A stretch of 64,000 nt of DNA, taken from contig CALGPN010000025.1 in the NCBI GenBank assembly GCA_937960435.1, positions 1-64,000 on the forward strand. The letters run 5' to 3'. Source of the DNA: an uncultured Desulfosoma sp. (GTDB lineage Bacteria > Desulfobacterota > Syntrophobacteria > Syntrophobacterales > DSM-9756). Each line of letters opens with the position of its first letter. Position 1 is the first letter of the stretch. Positions 56,331 through 62,619 of this stretch are shown here, one piece after another. The notes under the pieces are model-generated. The model made no database searches. It was given only the letters and a program-made list of their open reading frames with translations, and was not told the DNA's origin. The position numbers were made by a program, and so were the translations under genes.

Positions 56331-56404
56331 TGGGGGATCGTCTAGCGGCAGGACGGCGGACTCTGGATCCGCTAGCCTAGGTTCGAATCCTAGTCCCCCA
56401 GCCA
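56331..56404 (+). tRNA. tRNA-Gln (anticodon CTG)
   Basis: A 74-nt cloverleaf with CCA encoded. Acceptor TGGGGGA/TCCCCCA, anticodon stem GCGGA/TCCGC with loop CTCTGGA giving anticodon CTG (reads CAG), T arm CTAGGTTCGAATCCTAG. It is transcribed with the tRNA-Glu seven bases on. Confidence 0.95.
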
Positions 56405-56411
56405 TTTTTTT

Positions 56412-56487
56412 GGTCCCATCGTCTAGTGGCCTAGGATACTGGCCTCTCACGCCAGAGACACGGGTTCGAATCCCGTTGGGACTACCA
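56412..56487 (+). tRNA. tRNA-Glu (anticodon CTC)
   Basis: A 76-nt cloverleaf with CCA encoded. Acceptor GGTCCCA/TGGGACT with a G-U first pair, anticodon stem CTGGC/GCCAG with loop CTCTCAC giving anticodon CTC (reads GAG), T arm CGGGTTCGAATCCCG. Confidence 0.95.
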
Positions 56488-56590: not shown

Positions 56591-57742
56591 TTACGAGAGG
56601 ATATGAATTGCCTGCAGGCTCCGGTGCAGATCACGGGCGTGGACGGCGATGGTGCGGGACCCCAAAGCCTCTTCTTCTGGGTCGACCACGAGGTCGTCCG
56701 CCAGAAGATGCCCCACGGCCTCCCAGTCTGCGGCGCCGAAGGCCCGAAATGCCTCAAGAATCTCGCCGCAAGAGAGAACTTCATCGGCCGGCGCCCCATC
56801 GGCCCATCCTCTGAAAAAGCCGTCCACGACGGCGGGAAGCCACCGTTCGGTCGCCCAGACCAAGTCGCCCGATCCTTGTTCCCGATCCAGTCTCATTCGA
56901 AAAGTCAGGACGAAGAAAAAGGCGGCCAGAGCCGACAGGCGTTCGTGGTGTTGCGGGCCCGGTGCCACAAGCACCTCCAGGCCTCGGGCGGCAATGAGCC
57001 GCACCGCCACTGTTTGACCGTGGGGAGCCACAACGAAATCTCCCGCCGCATGGTGCCACGGGTAAATGTGGCGAAATTCGCGCCGATCCAGAGCCAGAGT
57101 CAGGATGTAGGCCGCCTGTTCCATGAGCTGAGATGCCTGCGCCGCGCTCAGGATAGCGCCCGAAGGCGAATCGTCCCAAACTTCCACCGATTCGGCATCA
57201 CTTCCAGGTCCTTTTTTGAGATGCCATTCGTAAAACCCATCGAACCACTGCGCCAGAAAAAAGCCAAAGGAGCCATGTCGTCCGGCACTGTCTTCCCAAA
57301 ACCCTTGACCTCGATAAAGCATCTTGGGCACGTAAGGTGCCGCCGCCGTTTTTGAAAGGCTTTGCAGCGTGTCCGATTCCCGCACCAAGGCTGCCTGGCG
57401 CTTGGGATGCACAGCGGAATTCATGGCCATGGAAAACCAGCGATCTCCGACACGCACCGTGACTTTCGCCACGTGATAAAGAGCGCCGTGTTTCACACTG
57501 TCGAGACACACTTCGTCGATTCGCTCCGGCGCAAAACGTTCCCCGGTAAGCGCCTCCAGGCTTCGACGGATGGGTTCGACAGCCCTTGCCCGCAAGGCTT
57601 GTACCAGAGCGCGGAAATAAGTGGCATAGGTTATCTTGGGAGCGTCTGTGGATAATCCCGTAGGAAGGACCCGGGTCAGGGCGTCGTCATAGGCGGGTTT
57701 GCCGTCAATGAGGGGGACAAAGGCCGGGACCGAACCCCTCAT
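56591..57742 (-). CDS. Kinase-fold-like uncharacterised protein
   Basis: A 383-residue protein with the outline of the aminoglycoside phosphotransferase/choline-kinase fold: HGALYHVAKVTVRVGDRWFS followed by a hydrophobic strand and RESDTLQSLSKTA, then FLAQWFDGFYEWHL. A central HHAAGDFVVAPHG stands where the catalytic loop H-x-D-x4-N would be, and the ATP lysine is not evident. It may be a pseudokinase or a variant enzyme. Its ATG overlaps by four bases (ATGA) the end of the frame that follows the TGA in the small upstream gene. Confidence 0.6.
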   Translation of the reverse strand: MRGSVPAFVPLIDGKPAYDDALTRVLPTGLSTDAPKITYATYFRALVQALRARAVEPIRRSLEALTGERFAPERIDEVCLDSVKHGALYHVAKVTVRVGDRWFSMAMNSAVHPKRQAALVRESDTLQSLSKTAAAPYVPKMLYRGQGFWEDSAGRHGSFGFFLAQWFDGFYEWHLKKGPGSDAESVEVWDDSPSGAILSAAQASQLMEQAAYILTLALDRREFRHIYPWHHAAGDFVVAPHGQTVAVRLIAARGLEVLVAPGPQHHERLSALAAFFFVLTFRMRLDREQGSGDLVWATERWLPAVVDGFFRGWADGAPADEVLSCGEILEAFRAFGAADWEAVGHLLADDLVVDPEEEALGSRTIAVHARDLHRSLQAIHILS

Positions 57743-58020
57743 GAAGACTCCTCCGGCGGAACCTTCTCATCTTCTCGACGGGTCTTGACAGCTGGACAGG
57801 GAGGTTTCTGAAAGGGAAACGCGCCGGTCTTTTCCGTGAGCACCCGTGTGGCATCCAGCCACCAGTCGGCGAAGCCGCACCCCAGTCAGTGGCGGGAACG
57901 GCTCAGGCACCCCTGCAGGGCTTCTTCCAACTCCTTGACCCGTTCCCGCAGGTGGTCGCGTTCCTTTTCGAGGGCCGCGATCCGATCTCTCAGGCCTCTC
58001 TCGTCATCCTGGGCGCTCAT
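57739..58020 (-). other. In-frame continuation past TGA: candidate selenoprotein frame
   Basis: The frame of the 44-codon gene continues after its TGA (57886-57888) for 48 more sense codons to a second TGA that overlaps the next ATG as ATGA. The added part reads GCGFADWWLDATRVLTEKTG and ends KVPPEESS. The TGA plus LGC gives a U-x-x-C motif. Short hairpins follow the TGA (CGGC/GCCG at 57867-57877; GTGGC/GCCAC at 57848-57862), neither a clear SECIS. A nonsense mutation or a second separate small gene are the alternatives. Confidence 0.35.
57886..58020 (-). CDS. Small coiled-coil protein (minimal reading, to first TGA)
   Basis: A 44-residue protein starting MSAQDDERGLRDRIAALEKE, with leucine heptads through KELEEALQGCL, then CLSRSRH before TGA. 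GAGGT eight bases upstream of the ATG supports a real start. Alone it would be a tiny coiled coil; the frame goes on beyond the stop (see the 57739-58020 entry). Confidence 0.55.
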   Translation of the reverse strand: MSAQDDERGLRDRIAALEKERDHLRERVKELEEALQGCLSRSRH

Positions 58021-58052: not shown

Positions 58053-58379
58053 CTAGGTGAGGCCGTGTTCGCGAAAGAGCCGTTCCAAGAAGCGAGCCTC
58101 TTTCCCTTTGTCCATGCAAGGATCGTCGCCGTTTCTTGAGACCTCCTGAACCTGGAAAACGCAATCCACCAAGATTTCGTAAGGCGTGACCGTCGTGTGG
58201 CTCCGAACGTAACCGTTGCCGTTGGGTTGGTAGACGTGAAGAAAAAGGCTTTTCTTTTTTTGAAGGGATTCTTGAAGAGCCGCCTCAAACGTGTTGCGAT
58301 CCATGTCCGTGTAGAGGCGGATGCAGCATCTGGTCCGTTTAAAAATGACGTAAAGCCGACTGAATACCGGAGATTCCAT
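58053..58379 (-). CDS. Small uncharacterised protein
   Basis: A 108-residue protein with RLYVIFKRTRCCIRLYTDMD, then KKKSLFLHVYQPNGNGYVRS and PYEILVDCVFQVQEVSRNGDD. Cysteines occur as CC and two singles. No family recognised, no signal peptide. ATG 58379 is chosen for the AGAGGA seven bases upstream. It lies 32 bases before the TGA-interrupted gene and may be cotranscribed with it. Confidence 0.6.
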   Translation of the reverse strand: MESPVFSRLYVIFKRTRCCIRLYTDMDRNTFEAALQESLQKKKSLFLHVYQPNGNGYVRSHTTVTPYEILVDCVFQVQEVSRNGDDPCMDKGKEARFLERLFREHGLT

Positions 58380-58449: not shown

Positions 58450-59292
58450 TCATGATCTTTCCTTTTTCGCAACGGCGGATCGCTCTTTCAGCTGCTTCCA
58501 CACGGGACGATCCACGAAACTTCCGGAGACGTTTTCTTCCAGTTCCAGAAACAGCCGCCACGGCGCCGCGAAAGTAAAGAGGTCGTCACCCATGGTTTTG
58601 GCCACATTGAGACGCGCCGAAAGGTCTACCTGTCCGATGACCCCTCGTGGTCGCTCCCGGGCGGCTTCCCGATAGGCATAAATGCCGATGCTTTGGCAGC
58701 CCGCCGCAAAGGGAACGATCACGTTTTCGTTCCCGGGGCGTCCGTAGTTGGTTAAAACGACCAGGGCCGCCAATTGGTGCGGGGCGGCCCAAAAGACCAC
58801 CACCTGGGGCGGTGTCGTTGTCGGGTCGAGGGCCTTGAGGGGTTGAAAGACGACATAACGGGTCGGCACATCCATGATGGGCAAATCCTGGATAAACCTC
58901 TCCACAAGTGGGGGATCCTTGAGGTAGCCTTCACCGTCTCGAAACTCCTCCACGAACCCTCCACCGCCGGAAGCCTCCATCTGAGCGGTCACCGCGCGCC
59001 CTTGTTCCCAGTTCCGATTACCAGTGGAAAGGAAATAATGGAAGCAGGCCTCACCGCCCGGAAAGGCCGTGTATTGGTTGCCGAAGCCCAGCCCTACGCC
59101 GCCGCCCCAGCACCCGTAGGATTCCCTGTCGAAGGCGGCAGGCTTCCCGCGGGACGCCCCCGCAAGCATCCACATGACACAGCCCCATTTGCCGGGGCGG
59201 AAGACGGACGCCCCTTCGGGCTTTTTATCGGCCCACAGGACGGCGACAGGATCGTGCTGCAGCCCCAAAGCGTGGACAACGCGGCTCTCCAT
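58450..59292 (-). CDS. DUF169 family protein
   Basis: A 280-residue protein of the DUF169 family: LGLQHDPVAVLWADKKPEGA, WMLAGASRGKPAAFDRESYGCWGGGVGLGF, and PFAAGCQSIGIYAYREAARE followed by DLSARLNVAKTMGDDLFTFAAPW. The conserved Cys residues (CVMWM, CWGGG, GCQS) suggest a metal or cofactor site. The family is frequent in anaerobes and methanogens; its role is unknown. Confidence 0.85.
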   Translation of the reverse strand: MESRVVHALGLQHDPVAVLWADKKPEGASVFRPGKWGCVMWMLAGASRGKPAAFDRESYGCWGGGVGLGFGNQYTAFPGGEACFHYFLSTGNRNWEQGRAVTAQMEASGGGGFVEEFRDGEGYLKDPPLVERFIQDLPIMDVPTRYVVFQPLKALDPTTTPPQVVVFWAAPHQLAALVVLTNYGRPGNENVIVPFAAGCQSIGIYAYREAARERPRGVIGQVDLSARLNVAKTMGDDLFTFAAPWRLFLELEENVSGSFVDRPVWKQLKERSAVAKKERS

Positions 59293-59403: not shown

Positions 59404-60045
59404 ATGAACGGCTACGACTCTTTTTCCACCCTCCTGCGCCATGAAATCCCCGGCCGGGACTTCGTCATCGAATGGCGGACCGGCCGCTCCGGCCTTGCGG
59501 TCATGGCCCCCCACGGGGGCGGGATCGAACCGGGCACATCCGAAACCGCCCGATCCATCGCGCGGGGGCTTCACACGTTTTATCACCTAGATGGGCGAAA
59601 AAGAAAACACAACGCCGCATTGCACATCACCAGCACCCTTTTCGACGAGCCCGCGGCCCAAGCCCTTGCGGCAGCCTCGTGGAAAATCATGACCCTCCAC
59701 GGCTGCACCGATGAGGACGCCGACGTGTTCCTCGGCGGCCTCGATACCGGCCTGCGGCGCCTGTGCGCCGAAGCCCTCAGTGAGGCGGGCTTTACCGTCG
59801 CCGCCCATCCCATTTTCCGAGGAACACAGCCTGAAAACTTGTGCAATCGAGGTCGCGCGGGCATGGGGGTGCAGCTGGAATTGTCCCTCAAACTTCGGCG
59901 GCGCCTTTTCCGCGGCATGGATCGCCTTGGGCGGCGCTTTCCCACCGCCGTTTTTCACAGCTTCACGGAGGCGATTCGTCGGGCGCTCGACCAAGAAACC
60001 CTTCGCGTGCCCCCGAAGCCGGATCTGAGAACGGATCCCCGATGA
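59404..60045 (+). CDS. Poly-gamma-glutamate hydrolase-like protein
   Basis: A 213-residue protein matching the phage-derived PGA hydrolase (DUF867) family. The zinc-site motif is MAPHGGGIEPGTSE; LHITSTLFDEP and VFLGGLDTGLRRLC follow, and GVQLELSLKLRRRLF near the end supplies the catalytic Glu-type region. The known enzyme cuts the capsule polymer poly-gamma-glutamate. Here it sits in a bacterial operon with a glycosyltransferase, overlapping it as ATGA, with no phage genes nearby. The substrate may differ. Confidence 0.8.
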   Translation: MNGYDSFSTLLRHEIPGRDFVIEWRTGRSGLAVMAPHGGGIEPGTSETARSIARGLHTFYHLDGRKRKHNAALHITSTLFDEPAAQALAAASWKIMTLHGCTDEDADVFLGGLDTGLRRLCAEALSEAGFTVAAHPIFRGTQPENLCNRGRAGMGVQLELSLKLRRRLFRGMDRLGRRFPTAVFHSFTEAIRRALDQETLRVPPKPDLRTDPR

Positions 60046-61166
60046 AGATTTTGCACTATTGCCAACATGTGCTTGGGATCGGGCATTTTTTGCGGAGCAT
60101 GGAAATCGCCTCGGCTTTTTGCGATCACGCCGTGTTTTTTGTGGAAGGCGGCGATCCTTTGCCCGGCTTCCGGGCGCCGGACCATGTGCGGCGCATCGCT
60201 CTGCCCCCTCTGCGCATGGATCCCCAGTTTCGAAGCTTGGAAGCGGCCGGAGGGGACATCCGAGAAGTGCAGCGGCGGCGCACGGCGATTCTCTTGGACC
60301 TCTTCGTCGCCGTTCGCCCGGATGTGCTGCTCATCGAACTTTTCCCCTTCGGCCGAAAACGCTTCCAGTTCGAACTCATCCCCCTGTTGGAAAAAAACGC
60401 CGCATCACCCCACCGGGCCCTCGTCGTGTGCAGCCTACGGGATATCCTGGTGGAAAAAGCCGACCCGGACGTTTACGAAGAAAAAGTGCTCTCCCTCGTC
60501 AACCGCTATTTCGACCTCATCTTGATCCACGCCGATCCGAACTGCGTCCGGCTGGACGAAACCTTTCGGCGCGTTCGGGATATCCGGCCTCCCGTGCATT
60601 ATACGGGCTACGTGACCCGAACTTTACCGGGTCCCCCGCCTGAAAGAGTCCCCGGCAGGATTGTGCTCAGCACCGGAGGCGGCCGAGTCGGAATCGATCT
60701 CATTGAAGCCGTGTTCCTCGCCTTTTCAAGGCTTTCGAACCCGGACATCCGCCTCCATGTCCATGAAGGCCCCTTTATGGAACCCCGGGACAAGGAGGTT
60801 CTTTCGGCTCGTGCTGCGGCCGATCCGCGCATTTCTTGGCATCCCTTTTCCCATGAATTTCTGAAAGAATTGGCGCAGGCGGAGCTGTCCGTAAGCATGG
60901 CAGGCTACAACACCTGCATGGACATTTTGGCTTCAGGAGTCAAAGCCCTCGTCTATCCCTTTCCGCAAAACCGGGAACAGGCGCTTCGGGCCGATCGGCT
61001 GGAAGCTCGAGGCACGCTCCATGTCCTTCGTTCGCTGGATCCCGGAATCGTTGCCGCCCGGATCTGTGAAGCCCTGTCGGCTCGGCGGCCGACGGCCGAG
61101 CCATTGCAGACCGACGGCGCCGGAGAGACTGTTCGGGCCATTGAAAACTTTCAAACGAGAGCTTAA
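60042..61166 (+). CDS. Glycosyltransferase, MurG-like (GT28-type) fold
   Basis: A 374-residue protein. The N-terminal loop HVLGIGHFLRSMEIASAF is typical of GT-B enzymes with a glycine-rich first loop; the C-terminal domain has VLSTGGGRVGIDLIE and the donor-site region SVSMAGYNTCMDILASGVKALVYPFPQNREQALRA. Closest in outline to predicted glycosyltransferases of the MJ1255/undecaprenyl-GlcNAc type. The acceptor is unknown. Followed after 56 bases by the ABC genes. Confidence 0.85.
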   Translation: MKILHYCQHVLGIGHFLRSMEIASAFCDHAVFFVEGGDPLPGFRAPDHVRRIALPPLRMDPQFRSLEAAGGDIREVQRRRTAILLDLFVAVRPDVLLIELFPFGRKRFQFELIPLLEKNAASPHRALVVCSLRDILVEKADPDVYEEKVLSLVNRYFDLILIHADPNCVRLDETFRRVRDIRPPVHYTGYVTRTLPGPPPERVPGRIVLSTGGGRVGIDLIEAVFLAFSRLSNPDIRLHVHEGPFMEPRDKEVLSARAAADPRISWHPFSHEFLKELAQAELSVSMAGYNTCMDILASGVKALVYPFPQNREQALRADRLEARGTLHVLRSLDPGIVAARICEALSARRPTAEPLQTDGAGETVRAIENFQTRA

Positions 61167-61222
61167 ATGATTGGTCGCGGCGTGTGTCTTTTCTCGAAGG
61201 CAGCCCCACGGGGACCAAAGTT

Positions 61223-61879
61223 ATGGCCAAAACTATCGACCGACAGATCGTCCTCCCATGGCGCCAGGTCATCCGCATTTCGTTCAACGCCCTGCGGGCG
61301 CGTCTCTTTCGCTCCATGATCACCACCAGCACTCTTGTGTTGGCCGTGGCTTTTCTTTCTTACACCTTCGCGGTCTATGCGGTCCTGGAAGGCCTGTGGC
61401 CTGCGGCCGACGTGGCCCTTCAGGACAAGATCCTGGCCACCGGCTTTACGCCGACGGACGGCCACTTCGGCACCACGGCCAAAGACCGTTGGCTCGTGGT
61501 GCTTTCTCTTCTGGTTTGCACTGTCGGGATCATCAACGCCCAGCTCATGGCCGTGACGGAGCGCTTTCGGGAAATCGGGACCCTGAAATGCCTTGGCGCC
61601 TTGGACAGTTTCGTCATCAAACTCTTTGTCTTGGAAGCCGCCTATCAGGGTTTTTTGGGCGGTGCCGCGGGCAGCGTCTTGGGTGTGGGCACGGCGGTGC
61701 TGACCCTGTGGGCCCGATTCGGCTTTCCCGTGATCAGCCATGTGCCGGCGGTTTCCCTTGGCGTTCTTTTCGTCAAATCCTCGGCCCTGGCGGTGGGTTT
61801 GAGCCTCATCGGGGTCATGTACCCGGCGTGGGTGGCGGCACGGATGCAACCGGCCATCGCCCTGAGATCGGAGCCCTAG
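61223..61879 (+). CDS. ABC transporter permease (FtsX/MacB-like, short)
   Basis: A 218-residue membrane protein with four hydrophobic segments and FtsX-type features (RISFNALRARLFRSMITTST, then VTERFREIGTLKCLGALDSFV, VMYPAWVAARMQPAIALRSEP). It lacks the large periplasmic domain of MacB or LolC, which may be supplied by the gene at 62788. ATG 61223 has GGGGA nearby; GTG 61184 is an alternative. Confidence 0.88.
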   Translation: MAKTIDRQIVLPWRQVIRISFNALRARLFRSMITTSTLVLAVAFLSYTFAVYAVLEGLWPAADVALQDKILATGFTPTDGHFGTTAKDRWLVVLSLLVCTVGIINAQLMAVTERFREIGTLKCLGALDSFVIKLFVLEAAYQGFLGGAAGSVLGVGTAVLTLWARFGFPVISHVPAVSLGVLFVKSSALAVGLSLIGVMYPAWVAARMQPAIALRSEP

Positions 61880-61884
61880 CTTTT

Positions 61885-62619
61885 ATGAACGGCAACGGCA
61901 CGCACAATGTGGTTCGCCTCGTGGACGTGACCAAGGTCTTTCGCATGGGGCAGGAAGAGGTCCATGCCCTCCGAGGGGTGACCTTGGAAATCAAAGCCGG
62001 GGAATACATGTCCATCATGGGCCCGTCCGGATCGGGCAAGTCCACCCTGTTCAACATGATCGGCGCATTGGACAAGCCCACATCCGGCCGCGTCTTTATC
62101 GACGAAGTGGACGTGGCTCAATTGGACGCCTATGAATTGGCATGGCTTCGGTGCCGCAAGATCGGCTACATCTTCCAGACTTTCAACCTCATCCAGGTCA
62201 TGACCGCCATTGAAAACGTGACGCTCCCCATGATCTTCGCCGGCATGGGCCGGGACGAATACATGGACAAGGGCATGGAGCTTCTCAAGCTCGTGGGCCT
62301 TGCGGAACGCTTTCAGCACAAGCCTGCCGAATTGTCCGGCGGGCAGCAGCAGCGGGTGGCCGTCGCCCGGGCCTTGGCCAACGACCCCGCCATCATCTTG
62401 GCCGACGAACCCACGGGGAACCTGGATCTAACCACGGGAGAGGAAATCATTTCGTTGCTTAAGGAATTGTCTCAGCAGCGGGGCGTGACCATCATTTCGG
62501 CCACCCACGACATCAAGATGATCAACGTGTCGGACCGTGTCGTCTGGATTCGGGACGGGCGGATCGACCGCATCGAGGATCGGGAAAAGCTCCAAGTCTC
62601 CGTTGGACAAGTGTTCTAG
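61885..62619 (+). CDS. ABC transporter ATP-binding protein (LolD/MacB-like)
   Basis: A 244-residue ATPase. Walker A is GPSGSGKST, Q-loop in IFQTFNLIQVMTAIENVTLPM, signature LSGGQQQRVAVARALAND, Walker B IILADEPTGNLD, and H-loop ISATHDIKMINVSDRVV. The family powers lipoprotein release or mechanotransmission efflux rather than import. It begins five bases after the permease stop. Confidence 0.93.
   Translation: MNGNGTHNVVRLVDVTKVFRMGQEEVHALRGVTLEIKAGEYMSIMGPSGSGKSTLFNMIGALDKPTSGRVFIDEVDVAQLDAYELAWLRCRKIGYIFQTFNLIQVMTAIENVTLPMIFAGMGRDEYMDKGMELLKLVGLAERFQHKPAELSGGQQQRVAVARALANDPAIILADEPTGNLDLTTGEEIISLLKELSQQRGVTIISATHDIKMINVSDRVVWIRDGRIDRIEDREKLQVSVGQVF

Follow-up and report, generated by a model that had tools for sequence, protein, structure and literature searches.

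A conserved in-frame UGA in a Desulfosoma genome marks a very probable small selenoprotein of one bacterial family

The window, a stretch of 64,000 nucleotides from an uncultured Desulfosoma sp. (contig CALGPN010000025.1, positions 1 to 64,000), contains a run of minus-strand genes in which one reading frame is interrupted by a TGA codon. The features of this region are the following.

56591-57742, minus strand: gene for a 383-aa protein of a family without a name, downstream of the selenoprotein gene and overlapping its stop; found widely across the phylum in genomes that lack the selenoprotein
57739-58020, minus strand: putative selenoprotein gene, 93 residues with selenocysteine (Sec, U) at position 45; the range includes the final stop TGA
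57848-57862, minus strand: bSECIS-like hairpin GUGGC-UGGAU-GCCAC, with an apical loop that begins 28 nt after the UGA
57886-57888, minus strand: in-frame TGA, codon 45, very probably read as Sec; each of the seven genomes that have the gene carries TGA here
58053-58379, minus strand: gene for a 108-aa protein with invariant C18, C19, C73 and C88, the constant upstream neighbor of the selenoprotein gene
58450-59292, minus strand: DUF169 gene, the first of the same-strand run; not present next to the pair in the relative G003

The interrupted frame runs from M1 (ATG at 58020) to H44, meets TGA as codon 45 (57888-57886), continues for 48 codons and ends at the TGA at 57741-57739. The residues on the 5' side of codon 45 are MSAQDDERGLRDRIAALEKERDHLRERVKELEEALQGCLSRSRH, and those on the 3' side are LGCGFADWWLDATRVLTEKTGAFPFQKPPCPAVKTRREDEKVPPEESS. 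The final stop forms an ATGA overlap with the start codon of the 383-aa gene (57742-56591), an ATG at 57742. The initial annotation had placed the frame correctly at 57739-58020 and had described the TGA after 44 codons, the open extension and the overlap as they are found here, leaving the strand unstated. The strand is minus; read on the plus strand, the same positions give something different. The ribosome site, described as good, is present: in the window (GAGGTAGACCC-ATG) its quality is moderate, and a congener has a better one (AAGGAGGGATCC-ATG). The window member does have the U-x-x-C context, as U45-L46-G47-C48, and this goes beyond chance, the same TGA, frame and context being found in all seven genomes with the gene.

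The internal TGA is highly conserved. Short exact motifs taken from the frame, the only means by which phyla beyond its own were covered, were scanned against 84,980 species genomes and returned three Desulfacinum loci, each with TGA at codon 45. Among 60 relatives searched, eight matches were obtained, seven of which contain exactly one stop, a TGA at the position of codon 45; the remaining match is a weak one of coiled-coil type (E 0.009). The gene is present in seven of the eight genomes searched from the bacterial family, distributed over three genera including Desulfacinum, and the eighth genome (G005) lacks it. In these seven genomes the final stop differs (four TGA, three TAG) and the internal TGA is constant. 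No homologue with a sense codon at the site was found, and none without the extension. A nonsense mutation, which had been offered as one explanation of the frame, or a sequencing error in an ordinary gene could not be excluded from one genome alone. However, the same TGA in seven genomes of three genera, isolate assemblies included, excludes the mutation, and the probability of either event is practically nil.

The region after the TGA evolves under constraint. In the 17 codons 3' of the TGA, 2, 5 and 12 columns vary at the first, second and third codon position, respectively, and pairwise comparisons between genomes after the TGA give a pS of 0.13-0.70 and a pN of 0-0.23, pN being far lower than pS. 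Together, the third-position variation and these pN and pS values indicate that the extension is translated in the selenoprotein frame. Purifying selection with third-position variation is seen on both sides of the UGA. Within the protein, conservation peaks in the segment U-[LS]-G-C-G-F-A-[DE]-W-W-x-D-A, which starts at the TGA itself, and the best conserved residues straddle codon 45; the invariant ones include C38, S40, R41, R43, U45, G47, C48, G49, F50, A51, W53, W54, D56 and A57.

UGA 45 might also be a genuine stop, in which case a 44-aa protein would be followed by a second small gene or a leaderless frame. Standard gene callers would end the gene at this codon, and two tiny genes had been proposed initially as a further option. 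Against this, the stretch from the TGA to the conserved block contains no ATG, GTG or TTG, the codon immediately 3' of the TGA differs (CTG, CTT, TCG), and the type of stop is constant despite heavy synonymous change. A second gene is implausible because conservation sets in at the TGA itself and is not preceded by a start codon, and a genuine stop is considered extremely unlikely.

The genome of the window encodes SelA, SelB and SelD, and a tRNA-Sec with a UCA anticodon and G73, so that all the sel genes that the initial annotation had proposed to look for were found. Its SelD carries an in-frame TGA of its own at GAG-U-ASKL, the known Sec site of this protein. This TGA is an independent sign of UGA-Sec use in the genome. 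Because the TGA is conserved in all homologues, the extension is conserved, the Sec machinery is present and SelD has its in-frame TGA, the 93-codon frame is regarded as a single gene that very probably encodes a small selenoprotein with Sec at UGA codon 45. Of the three options considered at first, the conserved TGA and the sel genes thus favor Sec insertion over two tiny genes and over a nonsense mutation. The ribosome would read UGA codon 45 as selenocysteine by means of tRNA-Sec(UCA) and SelB.

A second decoding system is found in the same genome. A second SelB (G000:C34:5214-7100) is located beside a tRNA-Sec-like tRNA with a GCA anticodon and U73 (L002, G000:C34:8244-8331). The same pair, GCA anticodon and U73 included, occurs in five relatives, and in G003 the tRNA carries UCA and A73 (counterparts L066-L071). 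G005 lacks the pair. It matches the selC* tRNA-Cys/SelB* system, which is described in Syntrophobacterales and Desulfobacterales, sometimes with a UCA anticodon (PMC7609411, citing Mukai et al. 2017). UGA 45 might therefore be read as Cys through such a tRNA of Cys identity, or as another ordinary residue by near-cognate readthrough (Trp), and the UCA anticodon in G003 is in favor of such decoding. However, the anticodon is GCA in the genome of the window and in the remaining members of genera g1 and g3. The selC* tRNA of the window's genome cannot read UGA, since a GCA anticodon reads Cys codons. In addition, a canonical tRNA-Sec(UCA) was found in every genome examined, SelD uses UGA-Sec, and the base after the UGA is not fixed (C in six sequences, U in one). 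Reading as an ordinary residue is therefore very unlikely; in G003 alone, given its UCA anticodon, UGA 45 may be read as Cys. The anticodon switch of the selC* tRNA within one bacterial family is worth attention in its own right.

The hairpin just 3' of UGA codon 45 would be the likely bSECIS element of the selenoprotein gene. A published bSECIS model requires a hairpin 16-37 nt after the UGA, a G within the first two loop positions and a minimum free energy of -7.5 or lower (PMC13188914). The stem is found at the same position in all seven sequences, with an NGGAY loop and GG at loop positions 2-3, and both its spacing and its loop agree with that model (PMC13188914). The energy of the bare stem is borderline, at -4.7 to -7.4 kcal/mol in six of the seven sequences, and no significant difference was obtained against either synonymous-codon shuffles or dinucleotide shuffles. 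Covariation in the hairpin is uninformative, because most of the hairpin is fixed by the Trp codons and by constraint on the protein, and RNAalifold favored an alternative pairing. The SECIS check proposed in the initial annotation thus gave a fit in spacing and loop, without significance against shuffles. Being borderline in energy and indistinguishable from shuffles, the hairpin is compatible with a bSECIS element and was not counted as evidence for Sec.

A profile built on the 37-residue core was searched against 395 genomes of the phylum and retrieved only members of the selenoprotein family, with no Cys or other sense-codon homologue. Nine further genomes of the phylum gave borderline matches (E 0.0009-0.008), considered as possible Cys homologues; on translation, these proved to be chance matches. 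Sets of plasmids, phages and viral contigs yielded no homologue either, and the Cys homologues hoped for at the outset thus did not appear in any of these collections. The seven members gave no match above noise in NCBIfam (June 2026), nor did the window member in Pfam. Sequence searches of the PDB returned only noise from coiled coils and weak similarities to designed proteins, and a text search of the literature for the motif letters gave no match. As far as searched, this unannotated family appears confined to one bacterial family; it would be new as a family, with an ordinary decoding mechanism. According to the deep-Sep paper, Cys homologues now seem to exist for every known selenoprotein, and its own method may miss families that lack them (PMC12013277). 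The absence of a Cys homologue is unusual for a selenoprotein and counts against this reading of the gene.

The 108-aa gene occurs in six genomes of the phylum sample, the same six that have the selenoprotein gene, and the two genes are adjacent in each one examined. On the plus strand beside this pair, at 59404-62619 of the window, lie genes for a poly-gamma-glutamate (PGA) hydrolase family protein, an MJ1255-like glycosyltransferase, an FtsX-type permease and an ABC ATPase, and the synteny of this cluster is held in all genomes examined, G005 included. G005 keeps the wider cluster and the 383-aa gene, which there directly faces the PGA-hydrolase gene, and the DUF169 gene, the 108-aa gene and the selenoprotein gene are all missing at this place. 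In G003, only the 108-aa and selenoprotein genes stand beside the cluster, with neither DUF169 nor the 383-aa gene. From these two arrangements, the unit is the pair formed by the 108-aa gene and the selenoprotein gene, and does not include the 383-aa gene. Neither Pfam nor NCBIfam has a match for the 383-aa protein, which belongs to a widespread uncharacterised family; it was rejected as a functional partner, because it has relatives in 59 of 385 sampled phylum genomes, of which nearly all lack the selenoprotein, and is missing from the selenoprotein-bearing G003. Just past the end of its gene, tRNA-Gln(CTG) and tRNA-Glu(CTC) are encoded on the plus strand (56331-56487), and the ORFs listed there are artefacts.

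The predicted structure of the 108-aa protein is confident (pLDDT 87). Foldseek with this model returned nothing at E 0.001 or better. With VIA-align, the top rows were Rv3208A chains, above the rest (Z 8.4, rmsd 1.8, 64 residues aligned). Both proteins have a beta-beta-alpha-beta core of moderate resemblance, but they share only 8% identity, and the 108-aa protein adds a C-terminal helix and the four invariant Cys. Such a middling Z shows no function for the 108-aa protein.

The selenoprotein was modeled with Cys in place of Sec. The model places residues 3-44 in a helix, U45 and C48 in a loop, and residues 50-64 in a second helix; it is weak around the Sec loop, and confidence is low outside the first helix. 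The product would thus consist of a long N-terminal coiled-coil helix, a short loop with Sec45 and Cys48 (UxxC) and a Trp-rich second helix. The invariant Cys38 precedes the loop, which would create a C-x6-U-x2-C arrangement. With a Cys-containing partner encoded next to it, this arrangement suggests a thiol/selenol redox function, which we regard as probable from the residues only. Sec45 would attack the substrate, and Cys48 or Cys38 would resolve the bond. The selenoprotein would work with the Cys-containing 108-aa protein encoded just upstream, although a specific partnership of the two is proposed only tentatively. In comparison, known UxxC selenoproteins of the UGA/bSECIS type (for example Sec-thioredoxin, GrdB and DsbG-like proteins; catalogue PMC13188914) have the same in-frame UGA, genomic Sec machinery, UxxC motif and hairpin at the usual distance. 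In contrast to them, the window protein has no NCBIfam or Pfam match and no Cys homologue was found for it; its model is a helical coiled coil and not a thioredoxin fold.

Selenoprotein genes are often mis-annotated as truncated. Current finders filter candidates by their Cys homologues, and a conserved family for which no Cys relative is found would be dropped. This family is possibly a Sec-only one, with the profile search covering 395 genomes of the phylum. It could perhaps represent a small helical C-x6-U-x2-C selenoprotein that was founded on Sec within one bacterial family, is without a Cys counterpart in any organism and forms a redox pair with a lineage-specific, Cys-containing partner; we consider this full picture conceivable, at somewhat below even chances. 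If the family truly is without a Cys relative, it would offer a direct case for asking whether Sec can found a protein family, beyond replacing Cys. The constant 108-aa partner gene provides a concrete handle on the function of the selenoprotein.
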